From the NCBI GenBank assembly GCA_025057195.1, contig JANWWX010000010.1, positions 1 to 14,365 of the forward strand: 14,365 bases of DNA, read 5' to 3'. The notes under the pieces are model-generated. The model had not been told where the DNA came from. It saw only the letters and a list, made by a program, of their open reading frames with translations, and made no database searches. The position numbers were made by a program, and so were the translations under genes. Positions 1 to 14,365 of the stretch are shown in pieces. This DNA comes from Leptospiraceae bacterium. GTDB taxonomy: Bacteria > Spirochaetota > Leptospiria > Turneriellales > Turneriellaceae. Numbering within the stretch: position 1 is the first letter of the stretch; every line of letters starts with the position of its first letter.

Positions 1-164
1 TGCGCAGGCGTTGTGGCCAGGATGCGCGGATTCTGTTTGGCGCCACGGCCAGAGATGCTATTGGCCGGCGGGGCAAAGCGTTCAAAGCCCTGTTGGCAGG
101 CAAGCGTGGCAAAGGACAGCCATGCCATGATGGGAAAAGAATGGAATTTTATGGGGACTTTCAT
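1..164 (-). CDS. Putative lipoprotein, N-terminal part only (runs off the left edge)
   Basis: Only the first 54 codons are in the window and the frame stays open to the edge. The protein begins MKVPIKFHSFPIMAWLSF and continues ATLAC. This is a type II signal peptide: a basic start (K2, K6), a hydrophobic core, and a lipobox ending at Cys23. Lipidation at Cys23 would anchor it in the inner or outer membrane facing the periplasm or surface. What follows (QQGFERFAPPAN and on) is a polar linker with no recognisable domain. The ATG at 164 is preferred because it places the signal peptide at the extreme N-terminus and has a purine-rich AGAAGA just upstream. An in-frame ATG at 185 would add MLLEEIS and spoil the signal. 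Function is unknown. The dyad at 318-337 lies upstream in the same orientation, after a leader of roughly 120-130 bases. Confidence 0.6.
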   Translation of the reverse strand, partial: MKVPIKFHSFPIMAWLSFATLACQQGFERFAPPANSISGRGAKQNPRILATTPA

Positions 165-439
165 GGATATTTCTTCTAATAGCATAAAGCCAGGTTGGGG
201 AGAATCGTGCCAAAAATTTAGTAAACATGTGTTTTCTAAAATCTTGCTGTCTTGTCCTTTTCCTTCGCCCACTTCTGCTTTGTCTGGCTATAATGTGGAA
301 CACCAGCAAATTGTGATTTTTTCACTTTTTGGAAAAATTTTTTCGGACGGTGACTCCTTGGGCTTTACATAGCATACTGCGGGTGGCTTGTTATGCTTTT
401 TTCTACACTAAGATTTGGGCATTTACCCGCGAAGTGAGA
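165..439. other. Intergenic region between rfbB and the lipoprotein gene
   Basis: There is no convincing gene here. Open frames exist on both strands, but they shadow the lipoprotein gene or lack a start signal or family resemblance. The stretch holds an AT-rich dyad at 318-337 (listed separately). It also holds a weak six-base inverted repeat, AGCATA at 371-376 and TATGCT at 392-397, with a 15-base loop and a T run on the plus strand. The rfb transcript coming from the right must end near here, but no strong GC-rich hairpin with a T tract is visible on the minus strand. Confidence 0.5.
318..337 (-). promoter_or_regulatory. AT-rich dyad resembling the operators of paralogs A and B
   Basis: On the minus strand, TTTTTC and GAAAAA arms are separated by 8 bases, inside a longer A/T tract. 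The flanks align with the regions in front of the two small paralogs: a GTGAAAAAA-type right arm, then a TCxCAATTT stretch, CTGGT, and a final TTATAG. A possible -10, CATTAT, lies at 295-290. Unlike the other two copies, no start codon follows immediately; the next likely gene is the lipoprotein starting at 164. A shared regulator is inferred from the alignment only. Confidence 0.45.
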
Positions 440-1477
440 TTAGGACTTTTTATCTGCCCAGCGTTCTAAATACCACGCGACGGTCTTACGGATCCCCGTT
501 TCGAAATTCTCGTTGGCCCGCCAGCCCAGCTCGGTTTCGATTTTAGTGGCATCGATCGCATAGCGTCGGTCATGACCGGGCCGGTCCGGCACAAAGGTGA
601 TCAAATCGCGGTAGTGCGCGACCGTGAGGCCACGCGAGGATGGCGGTGCAAGTTCCTGCAGCAAAGCGGTGATGGTGTGTGCTATTTCCAGATTGTTGCG
701 CTCGTTGCGCCCACCGATGTTATAGGTCTCACCGGCTTTTCCTTTGTGGAATGCCAGGTCAAGGCCACTGCAGTGGTCGCGCACATAGAGCCAGTCGCGC
801 ACATTCTTGCCGTCGCCATAAATGGGGATAGGCTCTCCGGCCAGTGCTTTGCGGATAATGGTTGGAATCAATTTCTCGGCATGCTGGTGTGGTCCATAGT
901 TATTCGAGCAATTGGTAATGACCGTATTGAGACCATACGTGTGGTGCCAGGCGCGCACCAAAAAATCGCTGCCTGCTTTGGATGCGCTATAAGGGCTATT
1001 CGGAGCATAGGGTGTGTCTTCGCGGAAAAAGCCGGTCTCCCCCAGCGAGCCATAGACCTCGTCGGTGCTCACGTGGTGGAAGCGGCAATGTTCATAGCCC
1101 GCGCGCGGTTTTTGTGGGGATTCAAACCAATGCGCCCGCGCTGCCTCCAGCAAAGTAAAAGTGCCTTTGATATTGGTTTCAATGAAAATTTCCGGCCCGC
1201 GGATGGAGTTATCGACATGCGATTCTGCTGCGAAGTGCAGGACGCCGCGGATGTCGTAGTCGCGAAAAAGTTTTTGCACCAATGCGGCGTCGCGGATGTC
1301 GCCTTGGATAAAAACATAGCGCGGATCATTCTCCACACTTTTGAGGTAGCTAAGGTCTGCCGCGTAGGTCAGCTTGTCGAGGTTGATGAGGCGGTAGTTG
1401 GAGTATTTTTCTAAAAAATACAGGATGAAATTGGAGCCGATGAAGCCGGCCCCGCCGGTGACAAGCAGTGAGGTCAT
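440..1477 (-). CDS. rfbB: dTDP-glucose 4,6-dehydratase (RmlB)
   Basis: Cytoplasmic enzyme that converts dTDP-D-glucose to dTDP-4-keto-6-deoxy-D-glucose, the second step of dTDP-L-rhamnose synthesis. It belongs to the extended short-chain dehydrogenase family. Visible features are the NAD-binding GGAGFIG at residues 8-14, the STDEVYG segment with the catalytic Thr138-Asp139-Glu140 triad, and the YxxxK pair Tyr163-Lys167 in SPYSASK. The substrate-binding NNYGPHQHAEKLIP segment follows near 192-205. Length (345 aa) is normal for the family. The ATG overlaps the rfbD stop as ATGA, so translation is probably coupled. It is the last gene of the rfbACDB set and of the long leftward operon. The identification is firm. 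Confidence 0.97.
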   Translation of the reverse strand: MTSLLVTGGAGFIGSNFILYFLEKYSNYRLINLDKLTYAADLSYLKSVENDPRYVFIQGDIRDAALVQKLFRDYDIRGVLHFAAESHVDNSIRGPEIFIETNIKGTFTLLEAARAHWFESPQKPRAGYEHCRFHHVSTDEVYGSLGETGFFREDTPYAPNSPYSASKAGSDFLVRAWHHTYGLNTVITNCSNNYGPHQHAEKLIPTIIRKALAGEPIPIYGDGKNVRDWLYVRDHCSGLDLAFHKGKAGETYNIGGRNERNNLEIAHTITALLQELAPPSSRGLTVAHYRDLITFVPDRPGHDRRYAIDATKIETELGWRANENFETGIRKTVAWYLERWADKKS

Positions 1478-2358
1478 GGTTTTTGCTCCTCGCGTAGGTT
1501 TTGGTAGGCAGCGACGGCAGAAACCAGCGCTGCACGCCAGTGGCGTATGCTAAATGAAAATTCTTGGGCGAAGCGGCGCGGCCACAGCGCACTAAAGGCC
1601 GGCCGTGGCGTCGGCAGTGGGTATTCGTGCGTCAAAATGGGAAAAACGGGTGTTTGGCTGCCGGCTAGTTCCAAAATCGCGCAAGCAAAGTCATACCAAC
1701 TGGTGACACCATAATTACTGAAATGCCAGACCTGCATGGGGCAGGGCTGCTCGCTGCGCTGCTTTAGCATGTGCCAGAGCGCCTCTGCCAGATCCCCAGC
1801 ATAGGTGGGTGAACCACTCTGGTCTGCGACCACGGAAAGCTGCGGCCGCTCTTGGGCGAGGCGCAACATCGTCTTCATGAAGTTATGGCCGAATTCAGAA
1901 TAAAGCCATGCTGTGCGCACGATCGCTCCCTCCACGCCCGAGGCCAAGACAGCCCTTTCTCCGGCAAATTTGCTTTCGGCATAGACCCCGCGTGGCAGAG
2001 GCGGTTGGTCTTCGGCAATGGGCCGGTTAAAATTGCCATGGAAAATGAAATCTGTAGAGATGTGCAAAAGCCGGATACCGGCGCTGCGGCAAATCTGCGC
2101 CAGGGCGGCCACCGCGCGGTGGTTGATGGCATCAGCCGCTTCGGGCTCTTTTTCTGCGGCATCGACTTTAGTGTAGGCAGCGGTGTTGATGACCCAATGC
2201 GGACGGAGGTCTTTTATTTTTTGGCCGAGCGCCGCCTCATCCGTGATGTCGAGCTCGTTGCGCGCAAAATAATGCGCGTTAACCCCTTGTGGCTGGCATT
2301 TTTTGAGGCATGAGGCTAACTGTCCCCCACCCCCTGTGATGACAACACGCAGCGCCAT
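1474..2358 (-). CDS. rfbD: dTDP-4-dehydrorhamnose reductase (RmlD)
   Basis: Catalyses the final NAD(P)H-dependent reduction of dTDP-4-keto-L-rhamnose to dTDP-L-rhamnose in the cytoplasm. Visible features are the nucleotide-binding GGGGQLA at residues 9-15, NTAAYTKVDAAE near 58-69 (typical of RmlD), STDFIFHG at 101-108, the catalytic Tyr126 and Lys130 in YAESK, and the C-terminal TPRPAFSAL signature. A TTG at 2361 would also open the frame, but the ATG at 2358 is the better start. It shares one base with the rfbC stop (TGATG), and [10 protein letters not shown] is the expected N-terminus. Length (294 aa) is typical. It sits between rfbC and rfbB, overlapping both. The identification is firm. 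Confidence 0.96.
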   Translation of the reverse strand: MALRVVITGGGGQLASCLKKCQPQGVNAHYFARNELDITDEAALGQKIKDLRPHWVINTAAYTKVDAAEKEPEAADAINHRAVAALAQICRSAGIRLLHISTDFIFHGNFNRPIAEDQPPLPRGVYAESKFAGERAVLASGVEGAIVRTAWLYSEFGHNFMKTMLRLAQERPQLSVVADQSGSPTYAGDLAEALWHMLKQRSEQPCPMQVWHFSNYGVTSWYDFACAILELAGSQTPVFPILTHEYPLPTPRPAFSALWPRRFAQEFSFSIRHWRAALVSAVAAYQNLREEQKP

Positions 2359-2900
2359 CAATCAAAAAATTCCGCCTCTGGCCAAAAAGGTAGTGTTTGG
2401 TCTTTTGCCGAGACAATGCGCTGGTTAGGTGGGATTTGCCAATCAATATTTAGCGTGGGATCGGCGTGGTGGATGCCACGCTCGCTGGCTTTGTCATAAA
2501 AATTATCTACCTTATATTGAAAGATGGCTTTTTCGGAAAGCACAGCAAAGCCATGCGCAAAGCCACGGGGGATGAAAAGCAGGTGTTTTTTTTGGTCGTC
2601 GAGAATATAGCTATAGATTTTGCCAAAATGCGGCGAGCTGCGGCGGATATCGACCGCAACATCGAGCACGCGGCCAGTGACGACGCGGACGAGCTTGGCC
2701 TGGGCCATCGCACCAATCTGGTAGTGCAGCCCGCGCACGACACCATAACGGGAAAGCGATTCGTTGTCCTGGACAAAATCTGCCGTGATTCCGAATTCGC
2801 GGCGCAACAGCTCGCGGTTGTAGGGTTCAAAAAAATAGCCTCGCTCGTCAGAAAAAATTTTGGGTTCAACCAAAATTGGTTCTGGGTAGTGTTCAGACAC
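2358..2900 (-). CDS. rfbC: dTDP-4-dehydrorhamnose 3,5-epimerase (RmlC)
   Basis: Cupin-fold epimerase that inverts C3 and C5 of dTDP-4-keto-6-deoxyglucose, the third step to dTDP-L-rhamnose. Visible features are [10 protein letters not shown] at 16-25, the catalytic His59 in VVRGLHYQ, Asp84 in VAVDIR, the PRGFAHGF segment at 111-118, and Tyr129 in FQYKVDNFY near the active-site tyrosine position. The open frame extends upstream to 3026, but that part is the C-terminal end of rfbA read in another frame. The GTG at 2900 gives 180 residues, the usual RmlC size, starting [13 protein letters not shown]. This start overlaps the rfbA stop by eight bases (GTGTCTGA), matching the overlaps elsewhere in the operon. 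Confidence 0.95.
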
Positions 2901-3777
2901 GGTGTTTTTCAGCCAACCGCAAGAGGTAGCGGCCATACTCCGTTTTTTCGAGTGGCTTGGCCAGTTCGACCAGGTTTTCTGCGCTGATATAGTTTTTGAA
3001 AAAGGCAATTTCTTCAATGCAGGCAATCTTGAGGCCCTGGCGTTTTTCGATCAGGCTGACAAAGTGTGCGGCATCCAAAAGCGATTCGTGCGTGCCAGTA
3101 TCGAGCCAAGCAAAGCCGCGGCCCATGACACTCACCCGCAGCGTTCCCTCGTGGAGATACAAACGATTGAGGTCTGTGATTTCAAGCTCACCACGGGCGG
3201 AGGGTCGCAGTGTTTTCGCTTTTGCCACAACGGTGGCGTCATAAAAATAGAGTCCGACCACCGCATAATTGCTTTTGGGTTTCTGTGGCTTCTCTTCGAT
3301 GCTCAGCGCCCGCATGTTATGGTCGAATTCGACCACGCCGTAGCGTTCAGGATCATGCACTGCATAGGCAAAGATTTCTGCCCCACCATTTTGTTCTGTG
3401 CGTGCCGCGGCGCGGAGCAAAAGTTCGGTTAGGTCATGGCCATAAAAAATGTTATCGCCCAGCACCAACGCCACTGGCGAGTTGCTGATGAAATTTTCAC
3501 CGATCAAAAATGCCTGGGCCAAACCCTCCGGCACCGGCTGCACAGCATAAGAAAACTTTAACCCTAACTTTTCGCCAGAACCTAAAAGCTTCTCAAAGCG
3601 CGGCAAATCCTCTGGCGTCGAGATGATCAGAATCTCGCGGATGCCGGCAAGCATCAAAACCGAAAGTGGATAATAAATCATCGGTTTATCATAAACCGGC
3701 ATCAGTTGCTTCGACACCACTTGGGTGATGGGATAAAGCCGGGTGCCCGAGCCCCCGGCCAGGATGATTCCTTTCAC
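2893..3777 (-). CDS. rfbA: Glucose-1-phosphate thymidylyltransferase (RmlA)
   Basis: Joins glucose-1-phosphate and dTTP to give dTDP-glucose and pyrophosphate, the committed and usually feedback-inhibited step of dTDP-rhamnose synthesis. The N-terminus [16 protein letters not shown] is the nucleotide-binding signature of sugar-phosphate nucleotidyltransferases (GGSGTRLYP at 8-16). It is followed by the lysine motif [10 protein letters not shown] at 28-37, VLGDNIFYG with the metal-binding Asp108, and IEEKP at 160-164. The C-terminal part ([16 protein letters not shown]) is as in RmlA. The start is a GTG whose bases form GTGA with the stop of the upstream CcmD-like gene. Length of 294 aa is normal. 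The gene order A-C-D-B makes the pathway complete within about 3.3 kb. Confidence 0.97.
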
Positions 3778-4256
3778 CGCCTTTTCGTGCCGCGGCGCTG
3801 TGGTTTTTGCTGTGATTTTTTAGCGGGTTGGCTAATCTCTTGTGGTGGGGCCGGTGGCGGCACCGGTGCAGTGGACTTGGCAAGTTGCCGTGCTCGGCGG
3901 TAGGTGAAAATAGCAAAGATCAATAGGACTGCAACGGCAGCCAAAACGGCAGCGTAGAGATAGTAGATTCGCTCCTGGGCAACGCGTTCCGCATTGCGGC
4001 GGTAGAATTCCTCGCTCAGCCAAAAAAGCCGTTGTTCAGAGGTGCTGTGGCTTTTTTTGAAAGCTTGGCTGATTTTTTCAAGTTCCGCATCGCTGAATTG
4101 CGCAAGCGTGCTGCGCGCCTCAGCAGTTTCGGCTTCCAAAAATTTTTCCACACGCGGCCTTAACGTGGCAGGCAGTTCGTCTGTGTCAAATTCGGCCACC
4201 AATGGCAAAACCACCACCAAGGGCATTGCGAAATAAAGCAGTATTTTTTTAAGCAT
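3774..4256 (-). CDS. Single-pass membrane protein, possibly an extended CcmD-like protein
   Basis: I do not recognise a full-length family. The 160-residue protein starts with a hydrophobic export signal (about 1-21, possibly ending at VLPLVA). A charged, mostly helical region (22-96) follows, then a transmembrane segment (about 98-118, [21 protein letters not shown]). It ends in a cytoplasmic tail rich in proline then lysine/arginine (130-160). The helix followed by an arginine-rich stretch (YYLYAAV...TYRRARQL) looks like CcmD, a small haem-export accessory protein, and it directly follows ccmC. CcmD is normally about 60 residues, so the exported N-terminal domain would be an extension. The ATG overlaps the ccmC stop by eight bases (ATGCTTAA). 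The CcmD link is an inference from topology and position. Confidence 0.75.
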
Positions 4257-4917
4257 GGTCTTTAACCTCCACTTCTTCTAAAGTCAGTTGGGCAAGGAAA
4301 ATGACAATAAAAAGTAGCATAAAAGAACAAAACATGCTCCAAAAAGCAAGCCGCATTGCCGGGTTTGCCAAGCCAGTGCCCTCAGCGCGGAAGAGCACCG
4401 GGCCAGGGTGTGACACCGTCTTCCAAATATAGATTGCGGTCACCACCAAAACAGCGTTGGCAAGTGCTAAAATCGAAAGCACGGCGCCGATGCGCGCGGC
4501 TTTTTGCCGATCCGCAATGGTCGCACGCAAAAGCAGGTATGCGGAATAGAGTAACCACATGACAAAAAACGAAAGTAGCCTTTCGTCGCCCCAGTTCCAA
4601 AAAACGCCCCACACTGGGCGTGCCCACAGCGGCCCCGTCACCAAAACGGTGGAGGTAAATGCCCAGCCGGTTTTGACAAATGCCACTGCCCGCACATCGT
4701 GTGCCAAATTGCGCGTGATGAGATACAAAACCCCAGAGACCGTGCCACCGATAAACGCCAAAAACGAGACCCAGGCCAGAGGCACATGGAAATAGAAGAT
4801 GCGCTGGACATTGCCCTGCACAGCATCCGCTGGCACGGCCAAAAGCGCTGCATAGGTGGAAACAGCAATGGCCACAAATGCCATTCCCGCAAGCGCGCTG
4901 AAAGCCACAACACTCAC
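4249..4917 (-). CDS. ccmC: Haem exporter/handling protein CcmC (cytochrome c maturation)
   Basis: Integral membrane protein of the CcmC/CcmF/CcsA haem-handling superfamily. It presents haem on the periplasmic face for transfer towards apocytochrome c, classically through CcmE. About six hydrophobic segments are visible. The tryptophan-rich WWD-type motif is at 103-114 (WGVFWNWGDERL). It is flanked by likely haem-ligand histidines, His44 in FYFHVP and His170 in TVSHPGPVL, the usual CcmC arrangement. Length of 222 aa fits CcmC and is far too short for CcmF. The GTG start forms GTGA with the mtnA stop. No ccmA, B, E, F, G or H is present in the window, so the rest of the system must lie elsewhere. 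The WNWGDE segment differs slightly from the common WWxWD form. Confidence 0.88.
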   Translation of the reverse strand: MSVVAFSALAGMAFVAIAVSTYAALLAVPADAVQGNVQRIFYFHVPLAWVSFLAFIGGTVSGVLYLITRNLAHDVRAVAFVKTGWAFTSTVLVTGPLWARPVWGVFWNWGDERLLSFFVMWLLYSAYLLLRATIADRQKAARIGAVLSILALANAVLVVTAIYIWKTVSHPGPVLFRAEGTGLANPAMRLAFWSMFCSFMLLFIVIFLAQLTLEEVEVKDHA

Positions 4918-5951
4918 TCGAGCGTTTCCTCTTCGCTGAAAATGGCAGTGATGTAATTATGGGGGGTGATGTCGAAACTAAAGTTGACCACCGGCACTTT
5001 GGGGGCAATCGGGCGGCCGGCAATTTCGAGCACCTCTGAGGCATCGCGCTCCTCGACCACGATTTTATCCCCGCTTTCCAAAGTGGTGTCAAAAGTAGAA
5101 CGCGGTGCCACAACAAAAAATGGGATGCGGTGTGCGCGCGCCAGCACTGCCAAGGTGAACGTGCCGACTTTGTTGGCAACATCCCCGTTGGCCGCCACGC
5201 GGTCAGCACCAACAAAAACTGCATCCACCATTTTCTTTTGCATGAGGAATCCGGCCTGCGCATCCACGGTCAGAGTCACAGGAATTTTTTCCCGCTGCAG
5301 TTCCCAGGCGGTGATGCGTGCTCCTTGCAAATACGGGCGTGTTTCGGTGGCATAGACCATGTTCAGTTTGCCTTTCTCTTGCAGAAGCCGTATCACTCCC
5401 AACGCAGTACCGATTCCGCCTGTAGCCAACGAACCGGTGTTGCAATGGGTAAGGATATTGTATTTTTCTTTGGGGTAGCCGGCCAAAAGGTGGCGGACCG
5501 CGTTTTGCGCCATTTTGAGGCATCGCTCCGCATCATCCTCGTGGATTTGGCCGGCCTTTTCGTAAAGCTTTGCCACGAGTGCAGCCGCTGCGTCTTTCGC
5601 CTTGGCAGCTTCCGTCGCCCAAAACGCTGTTGCCGTGTTCAGCATTTCTTGTGTCGCCCAGGAAAGGTTGACTGCGGTTGGGCGGGTTGCGTCCAAAAGC
5701 TGTTTTTGTTTTTTTAGGTATTCTACGGTGGGCTTCTTGTTTTTTTTGTGAGCCTCACAAGCTGCCAAATATATGCCATACGCGGCGGTGATACCTATTG
5801 CCGGCGCCCCACGCACCACCATATTTTTTATCGCTTTCGCCACGTCGCTTGCGGTGCGGCAGGTCACATACTCCATTTTGTGCGGCAGAAGTTTTTGGTT
5901 GAGTAGCTCGATTTTTTCCTTGGCTGGTTTGATAAAAGACAGTCGCGTCAT
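4914..5951 (-). CDS. mtnA: S-methyl-5-thioribose-1-phosphate isomerase (MtnA)
   Basis: Aldose-ketose isomerase of the methionine salvage pathway, converting methylthioribose-1-phosphate to methylthioribulose-1-phosphate. It is related to eIF2B subunits. Visible features are VVRGAPAIG at 45-53, the catalytic Cys170 in THCNTGSLATGG, and the catalytic Asp250 in VGADRVAANGDVANKVGT. Length from the chosen start is 345 aa, typical of MtnA. The start is a judgement: an ATG at 5984 overlaps the lysS stop as ATGA but has no visible ribosome-binding site. The ATG at 5951 has AAGGAG nine bases upstream and gives an N-terminus of normal length. No other methionine salvage gene is nearby, so its place between lysS and ccmC looks metabolically unrelated. 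Confidence 0.95.
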   Translation of the reverse strand: MTRLSFIKPAKEKIELLNQKLLPHKMEYVTCRTASDVAKAIKNMVVRGAPAIGITAAYGIYLAACEAHKKNKKPTVEYLKKQKQLLDATRPTAVNLSWATQEMLNTATAFWATEAAKAKDAAAALVAKLYEKAGQIHEDDAERCLKMAQNAVRHLLAGYPKEKYNILTHCNTGSLATGGIGTALGVIRLLQEKGKLNMVYATETRPYLQGARITAWELQREKIPVTLTVDAQAGFLMQKKMVDAVFVGADRVAANGDVANKVGTFTLAVLARAHRIPFFVVAPRSTFDTTLESGDKIVVEERDASEVLEIAGRPIAPKVPVVNFSFDITPHNYITAIFSEEETLE

Positions 5952-5980
5952 GGTGATGTTCTCCTTGGCAGTCATGGCTG

Positions 5981-7513
5981 TCATGGATTTTGTTTTGGGC
6001 GCAAAAGCGGGAACAGGATGACGTCTTTGATGCTCGATTTATTGGTAAAAAGCATCGCCATGCGGTCAATGCCCAACCCCAGTCCACCGGTCGGCGGCAT
6101 GCCGACTTTGAGCGCAGTGATAAAGTCGTCATCGGTTGCCATCGTTTCCTCAGCCCCCTGTTCTTTTTGTCGCAGCTGCTCGCGGAAACGTTCCTCCTGC
6201 TCGAAGGGGTCGTTGAGTTCGCTGAAGGCATTGCCCATTTCACGCCCCGCGATGTAGGGCTCAAAGCGCTCCACCAGATGCGGGTTGCCTGGCATTGCCT
6301 TGGCCAATGGCGAAACAGCTTTTGGATAATTCATCACCATCGTCGGTTGGATCAGCTGCGGCTCGACTTTTTCGGAAAAAACCAGTTCGACCACCTCCCA
6401 AAAGGTGTTGAGATGCGTGGCGTCAACACCACACTCAGATGCGAGTTTTCTGGCTTCAGCAAGCGGTGGTTCTTCCTCTGATAAGAAAACCGTAAAATCA
6501 ATGCCAGTAAAATCGCGGATGCTTTCCAAATAACCCACTTTTTGCCAGGGCCGCGCCAAATGGATGGTGTGGGAACCATAGGGAATATCCGTTTTTCCCA
6601 AAAGTTCCAGCGCCAGGTGTTCAAAGAGCTCCTCAGTGAGTTCCATCATCGTGTGGTAGTCTGCATAGGCCTGATAGATTTCAATCATGGTGAATTCGGG
6701 ATTGTGGCGGGTGCTAATCCCTTCGTTGCGAAAGTTGCGGTTGAGTTCGAAAACCTTTTCGAAGCCACCGACGATCAAGCGTTTGAGATAAAGCTCCGGG
6801 GCGATGCGCAAAAACAGGTCCATGCCCAGCGTGTTATGGTGGGTAATGAAGGGGCGAGCAGCAGCGCCCGAGGCCACAGCCTGCATCATCGGCGTTTCCA
6901 CCTCGATGAAACCGCGCCGGTGCAAAAATTCCCGTATTTCTTGGACCATCTTGGAGCGCAACCGGAATGTGGCGCGGGTGTCGGCATTGACCGCCAAATC
7001 GATATAGCGTTGCCGGTAGCGCTGTTCTGTGTCGCTGAAGCTGTCAAAAACCTCGCCTTCTTTTTCTTTGACTACCGGTAAGGGATAAAGATTTTTTGCC
7101 AAAAGCACCAGTCGGCTCGCCTCAATCGTCGGCTCTCCGGTTTTGGTCCGGAACGGCCGACCGGTAACTCCCACAATGTCTCCCAGGTCCAACTGGCGCA
7201 GCAAAAAATACTCATCTTCATTGAGGGTTTTATTGCTGGCATAGATTTGGATCTTGCCAGTGGCATCCTGCAATTCCAAAAATTGTGCCTTACCCATGTC
7301 GCGGATGGCGACCACCCGTCCGGCAGTTGTCACCGCGGCTGCATCCGCAGGCGGAGTACGGTCATTGTCTTTTCCAAAGTGCTCGATCCGAAGCTGGGCA
7401 ATGTCCTCTTTGCCGGCAAAGCGCACCGGATAGGGATCGATGCCGCGCTGGCGGATGGCCTGCAACTTTTGCAGACGCTGTGCTTCCAGCGCTGATGGCG
7501 CTTCGGCATTCAC
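5981..7513 (-). CDS. lysS: Lysyl-tRNA synthetase, class II (LysS)
   Basis: Charges tRNA-Lys with lysine in the cytoplasm. The order of parts is classic for class IIb. An N-terminal helix (QRLQKLQAIRQRGIDPYP) precedes the OB-fold anticodon-binding domain (about 63-140). Motif 1 is around GFIEVETPMM (201-210). Motif 2 is RNFRNEGISTRHNPEFTMIE (259-278). Motif 3 contains GGLGLGIDRMAML (from 475). The frame is open to a GTG at 7579, but residues upstream of the GTG at 7513 (LTRRGPCSNPLHDV and on) are not like LysRS. Starting at 7513 gives 510 aa, near the usual 490-510. No clear ribosome-binding site marks either start. It is the first gene of the leftward operon, 122 bases downstream of paralog A. 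Confidence 0.95.
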   Translation of the reverse strand: MNAEAPSALEAQRLQKLQAIRQRGIDPYPVRFAGKEDIAQLRIEHFGKDNDRTPPADAAAVTTAGRVVAIRDMGKAQFLELQDATGKIQIYASNKTLNEDEYFLLRQLDLGDIVGVTGRPFRTKTGEPTIEASRLVLLAKNLYPLPVVKEKEGEVFDSFSDTEQRYRQRYIDLAVNADTRATFRLRSKMVQEIREFLHRRGFIEVETPMMQAVASGAAARPFITHHNTLGMDLFLRIAPELYLKRLIVGGFEKVFELNRNFRNEGISTRHNPEFTMIEIYQAYADYHTMMELTEELFEHLALELLGKTDIPYGSHTIHLARPWQKVGYLESIRDFTGIDFTVFLSEEEPPLAEARKLASECGVDATHLNTFWEVVELVFSEKVEPQLIQPTMVMNYPKAVSPLAKAMPGNPHLVERFEPYIAGREMGNAFSELNDPFEQEERFREQLRQKEQGAEETMATDDDFITALKVGMPPTGGLGLGIDRMAMLFTNKSSIKDVILFPLLRPKQNP

Positions 7514-7635
7514 ATAGCCAAAAAGGATTTTTGCGACGTCGTGTAAAGGATTGGAGCAAGGGCCACGCCTGGTAAGCACCCAACGATGGGTGGTGCAAAC
7601 CGTCTGGGCTGATCCTATCAGGAAATGTAGAATTG

Positions 7636-8103
7636 CTATTTTCTACTGTGTTGTGCCACTGGCTTGGCGGTGTTGGGTGGCTTAGAGGATGAAAAAAGCA
7701 AAAATTCTGTGTAAATATACCCGGCAGCACCCCACATTTTGATTTTCATGTCGTAATTACTGAAAAACATTACCCGGTCTTCAGGTTCTAGATTCTCCGC
7801 CCCGGGAACAATCCCCTCTTCAGCCAAGCATAGCATCACGAAAATGAGATACGACACCGACCAACGCAGGGCAAAAGCCAGGCTATGCAGCGAGTTATAC
7901 GTGCGCATGTCCCAATAGACCTGCACAATAATGATGCCCTCGCTGCCATCGTTGTGTGTGCGGAGTTTTTGCCGGGATGGCTGGTGCCGGCGCAAATAGC
8001 GCAGGTAAAATGCTAAGTTGGCCATGACGGTGGCATAGTGTTTATCACAAAGATTTTCCGCCGGCGCCGGCAAAGAAATGCTAGTTTTCCGTTTTTCGTC
8101 CAT
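7636..8103 (-). CDS. Small paralogous protein A, DUF1564-like / ribbon-helix-helix-like
   Basis: A 155-residue soluble protein with no signal peptide. It begins MDEKRKTSISLPAPAENL. The middle (about 57-97) reads as a strand (IIIVQVYWD), a helix (MRTYNSLHSLAFALRW), a serine turn (S82-S84) and a second helix (LIFVMLCLAEEG). This is the layout of a ribbon-helix-helix DNA-binding unit and, from memory, resembles the Leptospira DUF1564 paralogs. The C-terminal 30 residues are polar and probably flexible. Over the first 125 residues it matches the protein starting at 13989 at 107 positions, without gaps. The start is well supported by GAGGG four bases before the ATG, and the same leader precedes paralog B. 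It has its own upstream dyad (8143-8161). Function is not known; a DNA-binding role is an inference. Confidence 0.85.
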   Translation of the reverse strand: MDEKRKTSISLPAPAENLCDKHYATVMANLAFYLRYLRRHQPSRQKLRTHNDGSEGIIIVQVYWDMRTYNSLHSLAFALRWSVSYLIFVMLCLAEEGIVPGAENLEPEDRVMFFSNYDMKIKMWGAAGYIYTEFLLFSSSKPPNTAKPVAQHSRK

Positions 8104-8130
8104 AGTCCCTCTATATATTTAATACCAGAA
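8104..8130 (-). promoter_or_regulatory. Promoter, short leader and ribosome-binding site of paralog A
   Basis: On the minus strand, a -10-like TATTAA at 8124-8119 sits 15 bases before the ATG and is followed by TATATAGAGGGACT. GAGGG is the ribosome-binding site. The mRNA leader would be only about 8-10 bases. The last 14 bases before the start codon are identical to those in front of paralog B. No good -35 hexamer is visible; the dyad at 8143-8161 occupies that area. Confidence 0.5.
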
Positions 8131-8142
8131 AATTGCGGATTT

Positions 8143-8161
8143 TTTTCACTTTTTTTGAAAA
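8143..8161 (-). promoter_or_regulatory. Putative operator of paralog A (TTTTCA-N7-TGAAAA)
   Basis: Perfect six-base inverted repeat with a seven-base spacer of A/T character, embedded in long A and T tracts. It lies 18 bases upstream of the likely -10, which covers or abuts the -35 position. Paralog B has the same arms, spacer length and position (19 bases upstream of its -10). Conservation of sequence and spacing supports a protein-binding site; which protein binds is unknown. Confidence 0.5.
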
Positions 8162-8191
8162 TTTTTGCTGTGGTTTTGTTTTAACAACCAA

Positions 8192-8256
8192 TGCTTGGGG
8201 GCTTACGCCCGAGCAAGGGTTTTTTAAATAACAAAGCACTAGCCGGTTAGCCGGCT
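8192..8256. terminator. Two hairpins after the hydrolase gene, probable termination region
   Basis: The first hairpin directly follows the hydrolase stop codon: AGCCGG at 8241-8246 pairs with CCGGCT at 8251-8256 around a TTAG loop. The second pairs TGCTTGGG (8192-8199) with CCCGAGCA (8208-8215), including one G-T pair. Its plus-strand copy is followed by a run of six T at 8220-8225. On the minus strand, where the hydrolase transcript arrives, it is followed by the less perfect TTGGTTGTT. The region probably ends the fadD-hydrolase transcript before paralog A. The stronger T tract on the plus side would block rightward read-through. Confidence 0.5.
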
Positions 8257-9237
8257 TTACTCCGCATCACGGGCGTTGATCCACTCGAGTGCTTTCGGCC
8301 AAACCTCCTGTGGGGCACTTTTGCCGCAGACTAAATCCATGTGGCCATAGCTGGTGGCGCTGCCGTACTCTTTGCCAAAGACGATTAGCTTGCGTTCGCA
8401 GTTGAGCTCGTGGTAGGTCCATTCGACACCGTCGAGGGCACAGATCCAGTCGCGGTCACCGGCGAGCATTAGCACCGGCACCCGGATGCGGCGGTCGTCT
8501 GCGCGGTGCGGGAAGCCACCCGAAAGCCGTGGCATGCCCTCTGCTGAGGAGATGAGCTTGATCTGGTTCCACTCGTTGACTGCAATTGGCTCGATCATCT
8601 CATTGAGGATCTTGCGGCCGATTTCTGGGTCCATATTTTCTGGGTTCCACAAAAAGCGATTCCAAAAAGTGTCGAGGTGCGCCAGCGGCACCATCGGCTG
8701 CCAGAAATAACGCAGCGGATAAAACTGCAGCGCGCTGATGTAGTCGAGCAACGTGCGGAAATGGTTGATTGTGGAATACGTGTAGTTGAGTGCGGTGGCA
8801 AAAGTCGTCAGGCTTTGCAGGTTGGCTGCCTTATGCCGGATTTGGTAGAAAAAGCCTAAAATACCACCCATGCTGTGCCCGACCCAGTGCATCCGTTCTG
8901 TGCCATGTTCGGCAATAATATGTTCGACCACGGCTGGCAGGTCACAGAGTAGGTAGTCGTCGATCGACCACTGCAGGCCACGGCCGGTGTGTGGGCCATC
9001 GCTGCCACAGCGCCCGCGCAGATCCATCGCATAGACAGCATAACCTTGGGCAGCAAGATAACGGGCAAAACTGTATTTGGCCACGCCAAAGTCCCACACG
9101 CGGTGGTTGGAGGCAATGCCATGGAGCAAAAGCACCGGATAGCGCCGCGTGGTGTTTTCCGGCAGGTAGCGATAGACTGCAAGGCGCCAGTGGTCAGGGG
9201 TTTCGATATGGTATTGTTTTATTTTAATCTCGGCCAT
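8257..9237 (-). CDS. Alpha/beta-fold hydrolase (lipase/esterase-like)
   Basis: A 326-residue serine hydrolase without a signal peptide. Visible features are the oxyanion-side LLLHGIASNHRVWD (37-49) and the strand MDLRGRCGSDGP (71-82). The nucleophile elbow is GHSMGG with Ser122, the acid is probably Asp261 or Asp263 in LAGDRDWIC, and the base is His299 in YGHMDL. The insert between about 150 and 245 (LRYFWQPMVPLAHLDTFWNRFLW and on) is rich in aromatic residues and probably forms a lid over a hydrophobic substrate pocket. The substrate cannot be read from the sequence. The ATG at 9237 lies one base after the stop of the acyl-CoA synthetase gene; the ATG at 9261 would overlap that gene and adds no family residues. 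The pairing suggests lipid or fatty-ester turnover, with the ligase activating released acids. Confidence 0.88.
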   Translation of the reverse strand: MAEIKIKQYHIETPDHWRLAVYRYLPENTTRRYPVLLLHGIASNHRVWDFGVAKYSFARYLAAQGYAVYAMDLRGRCGSDGPHTGRGLQWSIDDYLLCDLPAVVEHIIAEHGTERMHWVGHSMGGILGFFYQIRHKAANLQSLTTFATALNYTYSTINHFRTLLDYISALQFYPLRYFWQPMVPLAHLDTFWNRFLWNPENMDPEIGRKILNEMIEPIAVNEWNQIKLISSAEGMPRLSGGFPHRADDRRIRVPVLMLAGDRDWICALDGVEWTYHELNCERKLIVFGKEYGSATSYGHMDLVCGKSAPQEVWPKALEWINARDAE

Positions 9238-9238
9238 G

Positions 9239-11125
9239 CTATTCCCGGAACATCTCAGCAATCAACGCAGCGTATTTTTGCTGGACCACATTGCGTTTGA
9301 TTTTCATCAGCGCGGTGAGTTCTTCCCCTACACGCAACTTTTGCGGCAGGAAGCGCACGTGCGCGATGCGTTCAAAACTTTTGAAACCATTTTTTTCGTT
9401 AATCAACTCATGGCAGATCTGCTTGAAAATCGCGATCAGCTCCGGATGGCGGTTCAGATCGTCTTCGGGATTGAATTCTGACACCGCAAAGCCGGCGTCG
9501 TTGAGCCGGTCATAGTCCGGCCAGATCAGGACGCCGAGATTTTTTTGGTCCTGTCCCACCACCACTGCCTGTTCGATCAGGGGGTGTTGCACGAGCAGTG
9601 TTTCGATGGGCACTGGTTCGAGGTTTTCTCCCGAAAGGAGCACAATGGTATCTTTGGCGCGGCCGCAGATCTTGAGCGCCCCGCTCGGGGTGAAATAGCC
9701 CAAATCGCCGGTGTTGATCCAGCCATCCTGCAGCACCTTGGCAGTGGCCTCTGGATTTTTGTAATAGCCCTGCATCACCCCAGGGCCTTTGACAAAGATC
9801 ACACCACGCTCGCCAGGCGGCAACGTTTTGCCTGTTTCCTCGTCACGGATTTCGACCTGCGTGCCCTCGGGGGGGAATCCCACAGTGCCAAGGATAACCT
9901 TACCGGGACGGCGCATGGCGATGAGTGGGGCAGTTTCGGTCATGCCATAGCCCTCATAGACGGGGATGCCGATGGCGTTGAAAAATTCGTCTATGTGAAG
10001 GGGCAGCGCACCACCGCCGGAAATGGTACCACGCAGCTCGCCGCCCAGCATCGCGCGCACGCGTACCAAAAAAATCGCATCCATATAAAGATCGGGCGCG
10101 GCCAGTGCCCCAAGCGAAACGAGCGAAAGTGCCTTATGCACGAATTGTGCCAATGGGTTTTGGCCACTTTTGCTGTCGTCTAAACCTGCCAGGGCGTTTT
10201 TCGCACGGTTGAGCCGCTGCTTGATGCTGTAGGAGAGGTCAAAAAGTTCGCGGTTGAATGCTTCGGTTTTGTCGATGCGTTCGCGCAGCTTCTGGTAAAT
10301 TTGCTCCCACAGCCGCGGCGCCGAGGCCATCAGCGTGGGCTTGGCACGGATGAAATCTTCCATTAAGTCTTTTTTATTGGAGTAGTAGTAGTGGCAACCC
10401 GAGTAGAGTGCACAGTAGAGCATAAAACGCTCAAAAATGTGCCACACCGGCAAGATTGAAAGAATGCGATCGTGGGGCGACATCTGCAGCACTGCTGGCG
10501 CCACCTGCAGTTGGTAAAGCATGTTGGCGTGCGAGAGCATGACACCTTTAGGTTCCCCCGTGGTGCCCGAAGTGTAGATGATGGTAAAGAGATCTTGCGG
10601 CGAAATGCGGTGGCAAATGGTGTCGAGTGTTTTTTCCTCAGCGTCGTTGATGGGTGGCAAATCGTGCAAAAGCTGCGGTAGCAGGGTGAGATTTTCCTCT
10701 TGCGCAAGTTTTTTCGGGAAATCGGGATCGAGCACGATGGTCGGGATCTGCCGTTTGCGCAGCACATCGCGGATTTTTTTGTAAAGCCGCAAATGCTCCA
10801 CAAAGCACAGTTTGGCTTCAGCGTGTTCCAAAATAAAACCCAGTTCTTGTGCCGTCGAGTCAGCACCGCGCGGCACAACGATCGCTCCGGCCATCTGGAT
10901 TGCCATGTCGCTGATCAGCCACTCGACCGAGTTTTCAGCAAAGATCGCGACACGGTCACCGGGTTTGACCCCTTGTTGGATGAGGTATGCCGCCAGCGCC
11001 TGTGCACGCTCGTGCAGCATCGAAAATTTGGCTGGTTTGAAAAATTTGTGCGAATCTTTGGTATAAAATTTTTGTTCTGGGTAAAGCCGGGCGCTGCGCG
11101 CAAAAACCTCGACTAGGTTTTGCAT
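9239..11125 (-). CDS. Long-chain fatty acid-CoA ligase, AMP-forming
   Basis: Activates fatty acids to acyl-CoA through an acyl-adenylate, feeding beta-oxidation or phospholipid synthesis. The 628-residue ANL enzyme shows the P-loop YTSGTTGEPKG (184-194), the adenine-binding YEGYGMTET (390-398), TGDLG (472-476, ribose-binding Asp), the hinge GRAKD (488-492), and a C-terminal catalytic-lysine region (ELTALMKIKRN). The inserted helical stretch at about 275-345 and the overall length match the long-chain subfamily (FadD15/FAA type) rather than acetyl-CoA synthetase. It has no signal peptide; membrane association is usual in the family. The ATG at 11125 is the only good start, though its ribosome-binding site is weak. 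It heads a two-gene unit with the hydrolase. Acyl chain preference cannot be told. Confidence 0.94.
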   Translation of the reverse strand: MQNLVEVFARSARLYPEQKFYTKDSHKFFKPAKFSMLHERAQALAAYLIQQGVKPGDRVAIFAENSVEWLISDMAIQMAGAIVVPRGADSTAQELGFILEHAEAKLCFVEHLRLYKKIRDVLRKRQIPTIVLDPDFPKKLAQEENLTLLPQLLHDLPPINDAEEKTLDTICHRISPQDLFTIIYTSGTTGEPKGVMLSHANMLYQLQVAPAVLQMSPHDRILSILPVWHIFERFMLYCALYSGCHYYYSNKKDLMEDFIRAKPTLMASAPRLWEQIYQKLRERIDKTEAFNRELFDLSYSIKQRLNRAKNALAGLDDSKSGQNPLAQFVHKALSLVSLGALAAPDLYMDAIFLVRVRAMLGGELRGTISGGGALPLHIDEFFNAIGIPVYEGYGMTETAPLIAMRRPGKVILGTVGFPPEGTQVEIRDEETGKTLPPGERGVIFVKGPGVMQGYYKNPEATAKVLQDGWINTGDLGYFTPSGALKICGRAKDTIVLLSGENLEPVPIETLLVQHPLIEQAVVVGQDQKNLGVLIWPDYDRLNDAGFAVSEFNPEDDLNRHPELIAIFKQICHELINEKNGFKSFERIAHVRFLPQKLRVGEELTALMKIKRNVVQQKYAALIAEMFRE

Positions 11126-11170
11126 GGCCTATAACCTTAGGCGGTGACAGCGTGTCGAGAATATCAAAGT

Positions 11171-11182
11171 GAACATTTGTTC
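11171..11182. promoter_or_regulatory. Dyad GAACATTTGTTC upstream of the acyl-CoA ligase gene
   Basis: Five-base arms around a two-base centre. The sequence fits GAAC-N4-GTTC, the core of the LexA (DinR) box of Bacillus and relatives. It lies about 46-57 bases before the ligase start codon. A twelve-base dyad can arise by chance, and an SOS site before a fatty acid activation gene would be unexpected, so the LexA reading is only a possibility. Confidence 0.3.
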
Positions 11183-11209
11183 GGTTTTATCGGCTGCCGC
11201 CAACGCTTA

Positions 11210-11225
11210 GTGAATAACTATTCAC
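11210..11225. promoter_or_regulatory. Perfect dyad GTGAATA-AC-TATTCAC, possible regulator binding site
   Basis: Seven-base perfect arms around a two-base centre, about 85 bases upstream of the acyl-CoA ligase start. The arms resemble the TGAAT...ATTCA type of palindrome bound by TetR-family fatty acid regulators such as Bacillus FadR. No regulator gene is present in the window, so the assignment is by shape and context only. Confidence 0.4.
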
Positions 11226-11435
11226 CGCACGCACAATTACTCCATGAAAGTCAAAATATGGGTCACTAAGGGGTTATTTACGCCGAATTTTTACGATTTT
11301 CACCCACAAAACCACCATCCGCCATCACGCCAAGCAACGCGAAGCGATAGAAGTAAGCACATAGCATTAGTGCAGAAACCAGAAACAAAAAATACCTTTG
11401 TGGTTTCTAAATAATCCTCATTTCCTTGGGTGATT

Positions 11436-11819
11436 ATGCAAAAACAGTTTACAATGGCCACAGCCGGGCGAATTACAAGAATGCGCAAAGCACGGATTGG
11501 CAAAAGTGGAGAGGAGCTCGCAGCACGCTTTGCTCGGCTTTGCGGTTTAGTGGTGCTTTCGCGCAACGACCGTCGCTTCGGTGGAGAAATAGACCTTCTC
11601 TGTCGGGATCGCAATGGCAGCTTGGTTATTCTAGAAGTGAAGTTGCGCCACCGCCATATCGGCTATCCAGTGATTTCTGCAAGCCAGCGCGCACGGTTAT
11701 CTGCGGCCGCAGCTGCGCTAGAACAAACAAAAGGTGAATTCTGCTGTTTTAGTTTTTTTGTTTTAGTAGCTGATCCCCAAAAGCAGGCAATTGAGCCGAT
11801 ACCCTTTGCCGTTTTTTGA
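11436..11819 (+). CDS. yraN: YraN/UPF0102 family protein (endonuclease-like fold)
   Basis: Small protein of the UPF0102 family, which has a Holliday-junction-resolvase/restriction-endonuclease-like fold and no firmly established role. Diagnostic parts are ARIGKSGEELAARF (19-32), the core GGEIDLLCRD (49-58) with Glu51 and Asp53, and ILEVKLRHR (65-73) with Glu67 and Lys69. These acidic residues and lysine form the typical nuclease-like metal site. Length from this start is 127 aa, normal for the family. The start is uncertain: GTG 11430 and ATGs at 11436, 11454 and 11481 are in frame. None has a well-placed ribosome-binding site; GGTGAT lies very close before 11436. The gene is alone on the plus strand, divergent from the acyl-CoA ligase gene, with its stop 23 bases from the citrate synthase stop. 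Confidence 0.85.
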   Translation: MQKQFTMATAGRITRMRKARIGKSGEELAARFARLCGLVVLSRNDRRFGGEIDLLCRDRNGSLVILEVKLRHRHIGYPVISASQRARLSAAAAALEQTKGEFCCFSFFVLVADPQKQAIEPIPFAVF

Positions 11820-11856
11820 TGGATCAGCGCTTTTCAAATGGATCAGCGCTTTTCAA
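11819..11856. repeat. Tandem duplication of a 19-base unit at the yraN/citrate synthase junction
   Basis: The unit ATGGATCAGCGCTTTTCAA occurs twice back to back (11819-11837 and 11838-11856) with no mismatch. The right copy contains the last codons and stop of the citrate synthase gene. The left copy starts at the last base of the yraN stop. The duplication forms nearly the whole spacer between the two convergent genes. It alters neither reading frame. Confidence 0.9.
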
Positions 11857-12982
11857 GAGGGACATACTGCAGGTCCTTTTTCCCTGTGTAGATTGCCCGC
11901 GGGCGGATGAGTTTATTTTCTTGGTATTGCTCTGCGATGTGGGCTAAATAGCCGGCGGTGCGGGACAGGGCAAAAACACAGGTGAACAGATCCGAACTCA
12001 GACCCAGAAGATAAAAGGCTAAACCACCATAAAAGTCAACATTGGGGTAGAGATTTTTTTCTTTGAGCATAATGGCCTCTGCGCGCTCAGCAGTGGCAAT
12101 TAGCTTTTCCTGGCCACTCTTTTTGGCAAGTTCGATGCACATGCGTTTGAGCACGGGCACGCGTGGGTCACCTTTTTTGTAAACACGGTGGCCAAAGCCC
12201 ATGATGATCTCTTTGCGCCGGAGCCGCGGTAGGATATAGTCCTCAACATTTTCTGGGCTGCCGATGGTGAGCAGCATTTCCAAAGCTTGCTGGTTGGCAC
12301 CACCGTGTAGCCCGCCTTGGAGGGTGCTGACTGCAGTCACAATGCACGAATAAGTGTCGGCAAGCGTGGCAGCGGTCACGCGTGCGGCAAAGGTCGAGGC
12401 GTTGAGTTCATGCTCTGAATAGAGGATGAGCACGGTTTCCAAGAGGCGTGCCGTTTCTTTATCCGGCACCTCTCCATACAGGCTATACAAAAAGTTGGCG
12501 GCAATGTCGAGCTCTGGGTTAGGTGTGATATAGCTACGCGCGTTACGGTGGCGGGCAATAGCCGCGACCAAAAGCGGCATTTTGGCCAAAAGCCGGATCG
12601 AGCAGCGGCGTAAAGCCGGCGGGGAATTATCTGATGCTTCCGGATCATAGAGTCCGAGTGAGGAGACAAGCGTGCGCAGCACCGCCATTGGGTGTGCTTC
12701 GCGCGGCACGTGGTTGATGTGCTCGATGATTTCGCGTGGCAGAGAGTATTCTGCGCGCAGCGCCGACTTGAAATCCTGTAGGGCTTGGCTGGAAGGCAAT
12801 GCGTCGTTCCATAGCAAATAGACCACCTCTTCAAAGCTGGCGTTGGCTGCCAGATCAATGATATTGTAACCACGCAAGGAAAGCCGATCCTGGCGGATGT
12901 CACAGATTTTAGAGGGCAGGACTTCGACATCCTCAAGCCCGGCGTGGTGGTCGGTGGACATGCTGCCTTTTACAACATTCAT
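11843..12982 (-). CDS. gltA: Citrate synthase (or 2-methylcitrate synthase)
   Basis: Condenses acetyl-CoA with oxaloacetate to give citrate at the entry of the TCA cycle. Catalytic residues are visible: His226 in GGLHGGANQQ, His265 in MGFGHRVYKKGDPR, and Asp316 in NVDFYGG. SEHELNAST (189-197) and ISRTAG-like LSRTAGYLAH near the C-terminus are also as expected. The 379-residue length matches the short bacterial type, which also includes 2-methylcitrate synthases. No prp genes are adjacent, so citrate synthase is the more likely reading. The ATG at 12982 has GGAG seven bases upstream. A second ATG at 12961 (MSTDHHAG) with AAAAGG upstream is a credible alternative. It follows the methyltransferase gene by 18 bases and is probably co-transcribed with it. 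Confidence 0.93.
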   Translation of the reverse strand: MNVVKGSMSTDHHAGLEDVEVLPSKICDIRQDRLSLRGYNIIDLAANASFEEVVYLLWNDALPSSQALQDFKSALRAEYSLPREIIEHINHVPREAHPMAVLRTLVSSLGLYDPEASDNSPPALRRCSIRLLAKMPLLVAAIARHRNARSYITPNPELDIAANFLYSLYGEVPDKETARLLETVLILYSEHELNASTFAARVTAATLADTYSCIVTAVSTLQGGLHGGANQQALEMLLTIGSPENVEDYILPRLRRKEIIMGFGHRVYKKGDPRVPVLKRMCIELAKKSGQEKLIATAERAEAIMLKEKNLYPNVDFYGGLAFYLLGLSSDLFTCVFALSRTAGYLAHIAEQYQENKLIRPRAIYTGKKDLQYVPLEKR

Positions 12983-13000
12983 ATATAGCTCCGGTTATAC

Positions 13001-13831
13001 CTATTTTCCAGACATTGGATCTGCGGAAACGGCAACGGTGTTCGCATTCGCCGGTGCCGTGAGATAGGTCTTAATGACAAAGGGTTTTTCCACCAGAAAA
13101 TAAAAAGCATAAACGCAAAGTTGGTTAATAGCACTGGCCATGATGCCATAAAACGAATTATTGTAGATTGCCACTGCATAACCGGGCAAGTGCCCCACAC
13201 CGTAAATGGGATTGCTAAAAATCCGATATGGCCCCGCAACAACAAACTCGCTGACTTTGTGCCCGACAAAGATGTCTTTCCAATAATAAACTGGGATTCC
13301 AATGAGCATGGTGGACCATAACTTCACCATAAGCCCCAAGGCAAAAAGCACTGCCGCGCTACCCCAAACCAACCACAGCGGCAACCCACCCCAAAAACCG
13401 GTACCAGGGGAACTTTCGCTCATGAAGCCGACGCTGGCGCCGTTGTGGAAGAAGAGGAATGCGAGGACCCCCTCATAGATCCGGTATGCTTTTTCCTCGC
13501 CAAAACGGCGAATGAGGAGTTGCCTGCCACCATTTGGGCGCAACATGTAAAAGAGAAAGAAGAGATAACTGACAAGACCTAATAAAAAATACACGCTCGC
13601 GAAATATACCTCTTTGTGCTGTGGCAAAAACCAGAAAAAAAAGAGTAAGGAAGGGACCATAAAAATAGCCCGCACAATGGTCATATTTTCTGGGATGAAA
13701 CCGACCATGCCGCTGAGCGTATGGGCAATACGCAAAAGGGTACGGAAAAAACTCCTGACCACTTGCGGCAATGGCATGAAACCGGGAAAGGCCTGAAGGA
13801 GGCCAGTGTTGGCAAGCAATTTATACCACAT
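13001..13831 (-). CDS. Membrane-bound methyltransferase of the PEMT/ICMT type
   Basis: A 276-residue polytopic membrane protein with several hydrophobic helices (about 52-70, 77-97, 121-136, 150-183, 214-246). The C-terminal part has the layout of phospholipid N-methyltransferases and isoprenylcysteine carboxyl methyltransferases. GPYRIFSNPIYGVGHLPGY (200-218) is the RxPxY-type SAM-binding segment, followed by two hydrophobic stretches and Glu248 in VEKPF. Typical substrates are phosphatidylethanolamine or a prenylated group; which one applies here cannot be read from the sequence. Only the C-terminal third shows the motif and the N-terminal helices look specific to this protein. The ATG at 13831 is the furthest start and has a weak ribosome-binding site. 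It is the first gene of a unit with citrate synthase. Confidence 0.78.
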   Translation of the reverse strand: MWYKLLANTGLLQAFPGFMPLPQVVRSFFRTLLRIAHTLSGMVGFIPENMTIVRAIFMVPSLLFFFWFLPQHKEVYFASVYFLLGLVSYLFFLFYMLRPNGGRQLLIRRFGEEKAYRIYEGVLAFLFFHNGASVGFMSESSPGTGFWGGLPLWLVWGSAAVLFALGLMVKLWSTMLIGIPVYYWKDIFVGHKVSEFVVAGPYRIFSNPIYGVGHLPGYAVAIYNNSFYGIMASAINQLCVYAFYFLVEKPFVIKTYLTAPANANTVAVSADPMSGK

Positions 13832-13926
13832 TTTGTAAGTACCTAAGCAAAGGTATCAAAAAACACAAGCGGCACAGCACACTGAGTTCTATGTAAAAGC
13901 CCTTCAAAACACAGCCCGCCAAAAAA

Positions 13927-13947
13927 TTTTTCAGAAAAACTGAAAAA
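13927..13947 (+). promoter_or_regulatory. Putative operator of paralog B (TTTTTCAG-AAAAA-CTGAAAAA)
   Basis: Perfect eight-base inverted repeat with a five-base A spacer, the best of the three related dyads in the window. It sits 19 bases before the TATAAT at 13967-13972, so it overlaps the -35 position (about -52 to -32 from the likely start of transcription). That location suits either a repressor or an activator contacting polymerase. It also lies between the divergent methyltransferase gene and paralog B, so it could act on both. Confidence 0.55.
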
Positions 13948-13966
13948 ATTCCGCGGTTTTTAGGTA

Positions 13967-13988
13967 TATAATATTATATAGAGGGACT
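13967..13988 (+). promoter_or_regulatory. -10 element, short leader and ribosome-binding site of paralog B
   Basis: A consensus TATAAT at 13967-13972 is followed 16 bases later by the ATG. Transcription would start near 13979, giving a leader of about ten bases that contains GAGGG as ribosome-binding site. The run TATATAGAGGGACT before the ATG is identical to that of paralog A. No -35 hexamer is evident at 17 bases. Confidence 0.55.
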
Positions 13989-14365
13989 ATGAACGAAAAA
14001 CGCAAAACTAGCATTTCACTGCCGGTGCCGGCAGAACATCTGTGCTACAAACACTACGCCTTTATTATGGCAAACTTAGCATTCTATTTGCGCTACCTGC
14101 GCCGGCACCCACCATCCCGGCAAAAACTCCGTACGCACATCGATGGCAGCGACGGCATCACCATTGTGCAGGTCTATTGGGACATGGAAACCTACGGTTC
14201 TCTACACACTCTCGCGTTTTCATTGCGTTGGTCGGTGTCACATCTTATATTCGTGATGCTATGCTTGGCTGAGGAGGGGATCGTTCCAGGGGCGGAACAT
14301 CTGGAAGCTGAAGACCGGGGAATGTTTTTCAGTAATTACGACATGAAAATCAAAATGTGGGGCAC
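13989..14365 (+). CDS. Small paralogous protein B, DUF1564-like / ribbon-helix-helix-like (runs off the right edge)
   Basis: The open frame of 125 complete codons continues past the window edge. It starts MNEKRKTSISLPVPAEHL and matches paralog A at 107 of 125 positions with no gap. The strand-helix-helix stretch is conserved (IVQVYWDMETYGSLHTLAF, then SLRWSVSHLIFVMLCLAEEG). So is the block NYDMKIKMWG just before the edge. Differences cluster on polar positions, and many codon differences are synonymous, which points to two working genes held under selection. The start is fixed by GAGGG and the leader shared with paralog A. Role unknown; a DNA-binding regulator is an inference from the fold pattern and the adjacent dyad. 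Confidence 0.85.
   Translation, partial: MNEKRKTSISLPVPAEHLCYKHYAFIMANLAFYLRYLRRHPPSRQKLRTHIDGSDGITIVQVYWDMETYGSLHTLAFSLRWSVSHLIFVMLCLAEEGIVPGAEHLEAEDRGMFFSNYDMKIKMWG

Follow-up and report, generated by a model that had tools for sequence, protein, structure and literature searches.

The contig JANWWX010000010.1 of the Leptospiraceae bacterium assembly GCA_025057195.1 (positions 1 to 14,365, forward strand; this whole stretch of 14,365 nucleotides is referred to here as the window) encodes two closely related small proteins of apparent ribbon-helix-helix (RHH) type, each within what looks like a short repeat unit with inverted ends and each preceded by a promoter-like motif. The source genome (G000) belongs to the Turneriella family and comprises 1.38 Mb in 282 contigs, at 54% completeness. 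The features of the two units are as follows.

7572..8206, minus strand: element copy 1, 635 bp from end to end, delimited by the stop in homology and the terminal inverted repeat pattern.
8187..8206, minus strand: 5' terminal inverted repeat of copy 1, GTAAGCCCCCAAGCATTGGT, 1 mismatch.
8143..8161, minus strand: dyad of copy 1, TTTTCA-N7-TGAAAA, its right arm within the control motif, from the sequence.
8107..8148, minus strand: control motif of copy 1, TGAAAAAA ... TGGTATTAAATATATAGAGGG, 1 mismatch to the core and 2 to the 39-mer described below.
7636..8103, minus strand: gene for a tandem-RHH-like protein, copy 1, 155 amino acids, from the open reading frame, family search and predicted fold.
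7572..7591, plus strand: 3' terminal inverted repeat of copy 1, GTAAGCACCCAACGATGGGT, 3 mismatches.
13835..14365, plus strand: element copy 2, truncated by the contig end, from the end pattern.
13835..13854, plus strand: 5' terminal inverted repeat of copy 2, GTAAGTACCTAAGCAAAGGT, 2 mismatches.
13927..13947, plus strand: dyad of copy 2, TTTTTCAG-AAAAA-CTGAAAAA, from the sequence.
13941..13985, plus strand: control motif of copy 2, from the sequence, lying outside the 39 source-genome matches of the 39-mer.
13989..14365, plus strand: copy 2 of the gene, 125 codons visible, from the open reading frame and sequence comparison.

Both open reading frames of the original prediction were found where it had placed them, that of copy 2 being cut short by the end of the contig, and a recount confirmed that their products agree at 107 of 125 residues (313 of 375 bases). 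The proposed spread of the family through the genome was borne out by a genome-wide search with the window protein, which returned 54 matches, with near-full coverage of the protein in 15, and the family is thus present far beyond chance; many of the matches stop at contig ends, as expected where repeats break an assembly. Comparison of the 15 intact copies (105 pairs, first 140 codons only) gave a median dN of 0.09, a median dS of 0.73 and a dN/dS of 0.11, with variable sites distributed 40/27/104 over codon positions 1/2/3, and the protein is under purifying selection. Some of its nearest relatives were assigned to a Turneriella sp. metagenome-assembled genome, and no close relative was retrieved from the genome_contigs database. 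A viral origin was rejected, there being no close relative in viral_contigs.

The similarity of the copies at the DNA level breaks off sharply beyond the gene, and inverted ends of approximately 20 bp (GTAASCACCCAAGCA... and GTAASCACCCAAGCAWWGGT) are situated at these breaks. Near-identical ends (up to 3 mismatches) numbered 74 in the source genome, against a single match for the reversed control; at least 15 of 20 positions were matched at the left end in 19 of 23 copies and at the right end in 11 of the 16 copies with enough sequence, a level reached by none of 400 shuffled windows. Window-type units with two clear ends are 623-710 bp long; between the inverted end and the ATG lie 103 bp in copy 1 and 154 bp in copy 2. 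A second gene, encoding 158 amino acids approximately 30% identical to the window protein, was found in a 775-bp unit with the same kind of ends and a similar 5' region. Nesting was also observed, in that the L135 unit lies inside another unit type and L015 and L019 have a common junction, and short forms were represented by one 204-bp foldback unit and one internal deletion. A target-site duplication was absent from 12 of 13 elements and consisted of 2 bp in the other. On this organisation, the repeat appears to be a mobile-element-like unit. Like miniature inverted-repeat transposable elements and REPINs, window-type units are short, dispersed and nested, with terminal inverted repeats and deletion and foldback forms; they differ in carrying a gene under purifying selection, and a parent transposase was not found.

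In L021, L140 and L020, which lie on different contigs, the gene is broken at the same position by one hairpin insertion of approximately 54 bp (TGTGTGC...GCACACA GGTAAC...GTTACC; doubled in L140). Three units with an identical gene-breaking hairpin suggest that a unit need not have an intact gene to spread, repeated independent insertion into the three genes being a possible alternative. Other repeats were observed in relatives. In G003, loci L194-L197 contain dense short palindromes (TTCAGGAATTCCTGAA, GGGGAATTCCCC) and a 412-bp unit with GTAACCACCC ends and without an open reading frame of 90 amino acids, and in G007 palindrome-like GGGGGTAACTATCCCC repeats precede the gene at L100, L106 and L112, with a similar stretch within the gene. 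Within the window, the 3' inverted end of copy 1 overlaps the start of the longest lysS reading frame (7513-7591), the real start of which probably lies some 65 bp further in, as judged by eye; a YraN-like (UPF0102) protein at 11430-11819 was likewise recognised by eye only.

The RHH-type fold claimed for the protein is supported. The predicted model (pLDDT 78) is a tandem, single-chain RHH with units near residues 5-37 and 57-95, Arc (1b28) aligns to residues 56-96 of the window protein at an E-value of 0.095, and the family contains a match to RHH_5 (E 1.5e-4); a strand-helix-helix unit of the RHH superfamily is accordingly predicted. The original prediction had placed a single strand-helix-turn-helix at about residues 57-97. 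A unit does lie there in the model, but the predicted fold is tandem, with a second unit near 5-37, and such a chain would not be one RHH needing a partner. The best structural match was one chain of the F-plasmid relaxosome, presumably TraY, although the match output does not give that name. TraY and VirC2 are tandem RHH accessory proteins, from which the window protein differs in having, among the matches listed, 9-15% identity to the relaxosome chain.

The resemblance to DUF1564 proteins of Leptospira, noted in the original prediction, holds as probable distant kinship and not as Pfam membership. A profile search with DUF1564 (PF07600) gave no match to the window protein at E-values up to 10, which leaves it below the gathering cut-off, and no match in the source genome at E-values up to 1. 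The DUF1564 profile did give weak matches in 8 of 38 family members (best E 0.002), sequence set A1 being a selection of 38 that includes 8 window-family sequences, and in a profile-profile comparison hhalign aligned 111 columns at a probability of 83.7 and an E-value of 8e-6. A model of DUF1564 had the same predicted tandem strand-helix-helix order. Judged by these alignments, the window protein is probably related, at a distance, to Leptospira DUF1564, and it is a non-member by the Pfam cut-off. The two also have in common that many DNA-similar copies occur per genome; the difference lies in the 5' regions, which in the copies examined in G018 look unlike those of the window type. Matches to DUF1564 numbered at least 48 in G018, at least 48 in G035 and 38 in G025. 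Amongst 20 of the G018 copies, the best 45 of 276 matching pairs shared 0.7-1.06 kb of DNA at 75-96% identity, and modular 5' repeats (CGTGCAAAAATGTGGGAACTCCA) were seen by eye, so that these copies look mobile too. No paper on DUF1564 was found in the literature, nor any on Leptospira with terms for miniature inverted-repeat elements, and the available portions of PMC3493377, PMC3746428, PMC6299819 and PMC4319587 do not treat the genes described here.

Besides the window family, two further types of RHH-like protein were encountered in the relatives. A longer type proved homologous to this family, at a probability of 96.5. For RHH family B, designated MKC..QP, homology to the family of the window protein was not supported (probability 8); it is RHH-like by eye, and one member matches RHH_1 at 0.0013.

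Upstream of the genes lies a 39-bp motif, TGAGAAAA-N9-TTTN-TGGTATTTANTANNTAGA, the core of which (TGGTATTTAATATATAGAGGG) was present, at 3 mismatches, in 11 of 21 genomes. The core occurred 40 times in the source genome, 13 in G004, 35 in G007, 12 in G008, 42 in G009, 33 in G010 and 7 in G012, and once each in G005, G011, G018 and G020, against one match of the reversed core over all 21 genomes. At 90 distinct core sites, mostly in relatives, TGAGAAAA was found at a fixed 21 bases upstream. The full 39-base pattern was matched 39 times in G000, 20 in G004, 36 in G007, 13 in G012 and 8 in G011, and was absent from G001, G003, G005, G013 and G016; its controls gave no match in any of these 10 genomes.

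All sites were read in G004, a T. parva-like genome (20 sites), and in G011 (8 sites), and those of the other relatives in part. The G004 sites precede recA, two ssb genes, comM, an IS91-family transposase, a 304-amino-acid protein without a family and 14 RHH-type genes, namely seven of the window type (one resting on a weak DUF1564 match, E 0.0038), four of the MKC..QP type and three of the longer type. Family matches behind the motif included RecA, SSB, Mg-chelatase/YifB (YifB being the NCBIfam name for ComM) and Y2_Tnp/IS91. In G011, the eight sites precede recA, two ssb genes, comM and four longer-type RHH genes, and a search of G011 with the window protein gave no match, which makes the regulon independent of the window-type elements. 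Over all the genomes, recA was found behind the motif in G004, G007, G010, G011 and G012, comM in G004, G007 and G011, and ssb in G000, G004, G007, G008, G010, G011 and G012. The recombination genes recA, ssb and comM thus lie behind one promoter motif. Of the 39 source-genome sites, 36 were distinct and read downstream, and 33 of these had a visible RHH start; the remaining three comprised one that ends after two codons, an ssb gene (C9) and a gene for 124 amino acids (C225). No recognised gene followed the motif at L237 (G007) and L276 (G012), and a metallopeptidase followed it at L268 (G010). A conserved protein of approximately 304-313 amino acids with a signal-like start (by eye) was seen behind the motif in five genomes (L241, L254, L270, L272, L321), that of L241 matching nothing in Pfam or NCBIfam.

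The distribution of the motif bears directly on the original interpretation of a family of self-regulating DNA-binding proteins, which can be put as a set of paralogous RHH repressors, each binding a dyad before its own gene. The conserved upstream region on which that reading was built is real; it is, however, a promoter-like motif common to recA, ssb and comM and not a private operator, and an upstream element so distributed offers no evidence of self-regulation. Nor do the two control regions agree entirely, as had been claimed, in dyad, spacing and leader. The distance from the -10 element to the ATG and ribosome site is 3 nucleotides longer in copy 2, the dyads read TTTTCA-N7-TGAAAA and TTTTTCAG-N5-CTGAAAAA, and the distances from inverted end to ATG also differ. 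Inverted arms of 6 nucleotides were found at only 22 of 150 distinct motif sites, and the T-tract was replaced by an A-tract in 17 of the 150; in most sites the dyad would be a by-product. Self-regulation is possible, and both the RHH-type fold and the good dyads of many source-genome copies favour it, but on these counts it is unsupported by the dyad. Given also the mobile-element-like ends of the units, we regard the repressor family as an unlikely explanation.

RecA, SSB, ComM and DprA belong to the inner machinery of natural transformation, and a competence-like regulon is for this reason our best guess for the genes behind the motif, which would resemble the inner half of a competence regulon. 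In the ComX regulon of Streptococcus and the CRP-S regulon of Haemophilus, the members and motifs of which are known, the likeness extends to recA, ssb, comM and, in one genome, dprA behind one motif; the motif itself is different, and the G004 set consists mostly of RHH-type genes, without uptake genes found. We know of no described competence regulon in spirochetes, and none was evident from literature titles. One genome announcement deduces competence of a Spirochaeta from a comEC gene alone (PMC4319587). Two observations limit this guess of a competence-like regulon: the 20 sites of G004, taken at up to 3 mismatches, yielded no DNA-uptake gene, and dprA lies behind the motif in G007 only, one of five genomes in which a full dprA was read. 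The first of these, together with recA and ssb being common damage-response genes, would suit a DNA-damage regulon in which the RHH genes are repair-linked passengers. That alternative seems doubtful, though it retains some weight, as no lexA, uvr or umu gene was found among the same 20 sites, and comM, as well as dprA in G007, are transformation genes.

Several candidates were considered for an enzyme that would move the units. Reading of loci between inverted ends, covering part of the 74 ends in a genome 54% complete, revealed no transposase gene. The gene itself was rejected as a plain transposase: by eye it shows neither an HUH nor a DDE motif, and the window proteins gave no significant match in Pfam, NCBIfam or PHROG, the weak ones starting at an E-value of 0.045. 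Also rejected, by eye, were an IS630-like TA target duplication, since at three nested junctions the uninterrupted copy continues with non-GTA, and an integron cassette, since the units lie scattered, are bounded by inverted ends and carry a promoter each. REPIN-like movement by a Y1 (RAYT/IS200-type) transposase, with each end made of GTAA and a small hairpin, would fit the ends that read CCAA-GCA-TTGG, the lack of target duplication and the Y1 genes of 10 of 18 genomes searched, including G004, G007, G008 and G010. We nevertheless hold it to be highly improbable, given that many 5' ends break the hairpin and that no Y1 gene was found in the source genome (at its 54% completeness), G003, G005 or G009.

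Rolling-circle HUH enzymes are expected to leave no target duplication, as observed here, and IS91-type genes with the regulon motif occur in G004, G007 and G018, where the only core match precedes such a gene. An IS91-type transposase with the same promoter could therefore move the units in trans; the promoter is common to both, but no ends common to IS91-type copies and RHH units were detected by eye, and we consider this very unlikely. The G018 gene (L215, G018:C1:1180451) carries an exact Turneriella-type core in a genome from a different family within the class, which suggests horizontal transfer.

Our favoured interpretation, held as somewhat probable, is that the window contains two mobile-element-like units that tie RHH genes to a recombination or DNA-uptake regulon of recA, ssb and comM. 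Each unit would consist of an inverted end, a promoter, one gene and a second inverted end. On entry of the cell into a recombination or DNA-uptake state, a single transcription factor or sigma factor would act to switch on RecA, SSB and ComM jointly with the RHH genes, and the RHH proteins may then bind to double-stranded DNA in an accessory or feedback role like that of TraY. With no recognisable transposase encoded and broken-gene copies dispersed as well, the units would spread by an enzyme supplied in trans. A bolder extension strikes us as unlikely: that a selfish class of units in Turneriella-type spirochetes adopted a transformation or recombination promoter, its DNA-binding protein being made, and the unit copied, at just the time when RecA, SSB and ComM handle single-stranded DNA, with the IS91-type transposase behind the same promoter belonging to it and Leptospira DUF1564 representing an ancient branch.

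For the Leptospira relatives, the analysis proposes a fold for the uncharacterised DUF1564 families. For spirochetes more broadly, it offers a sharply delimited motif of 39 bp as the mark of a recombination regulon, and with it a testable link that may connect mobile repeats to a programme of DNA exchange.
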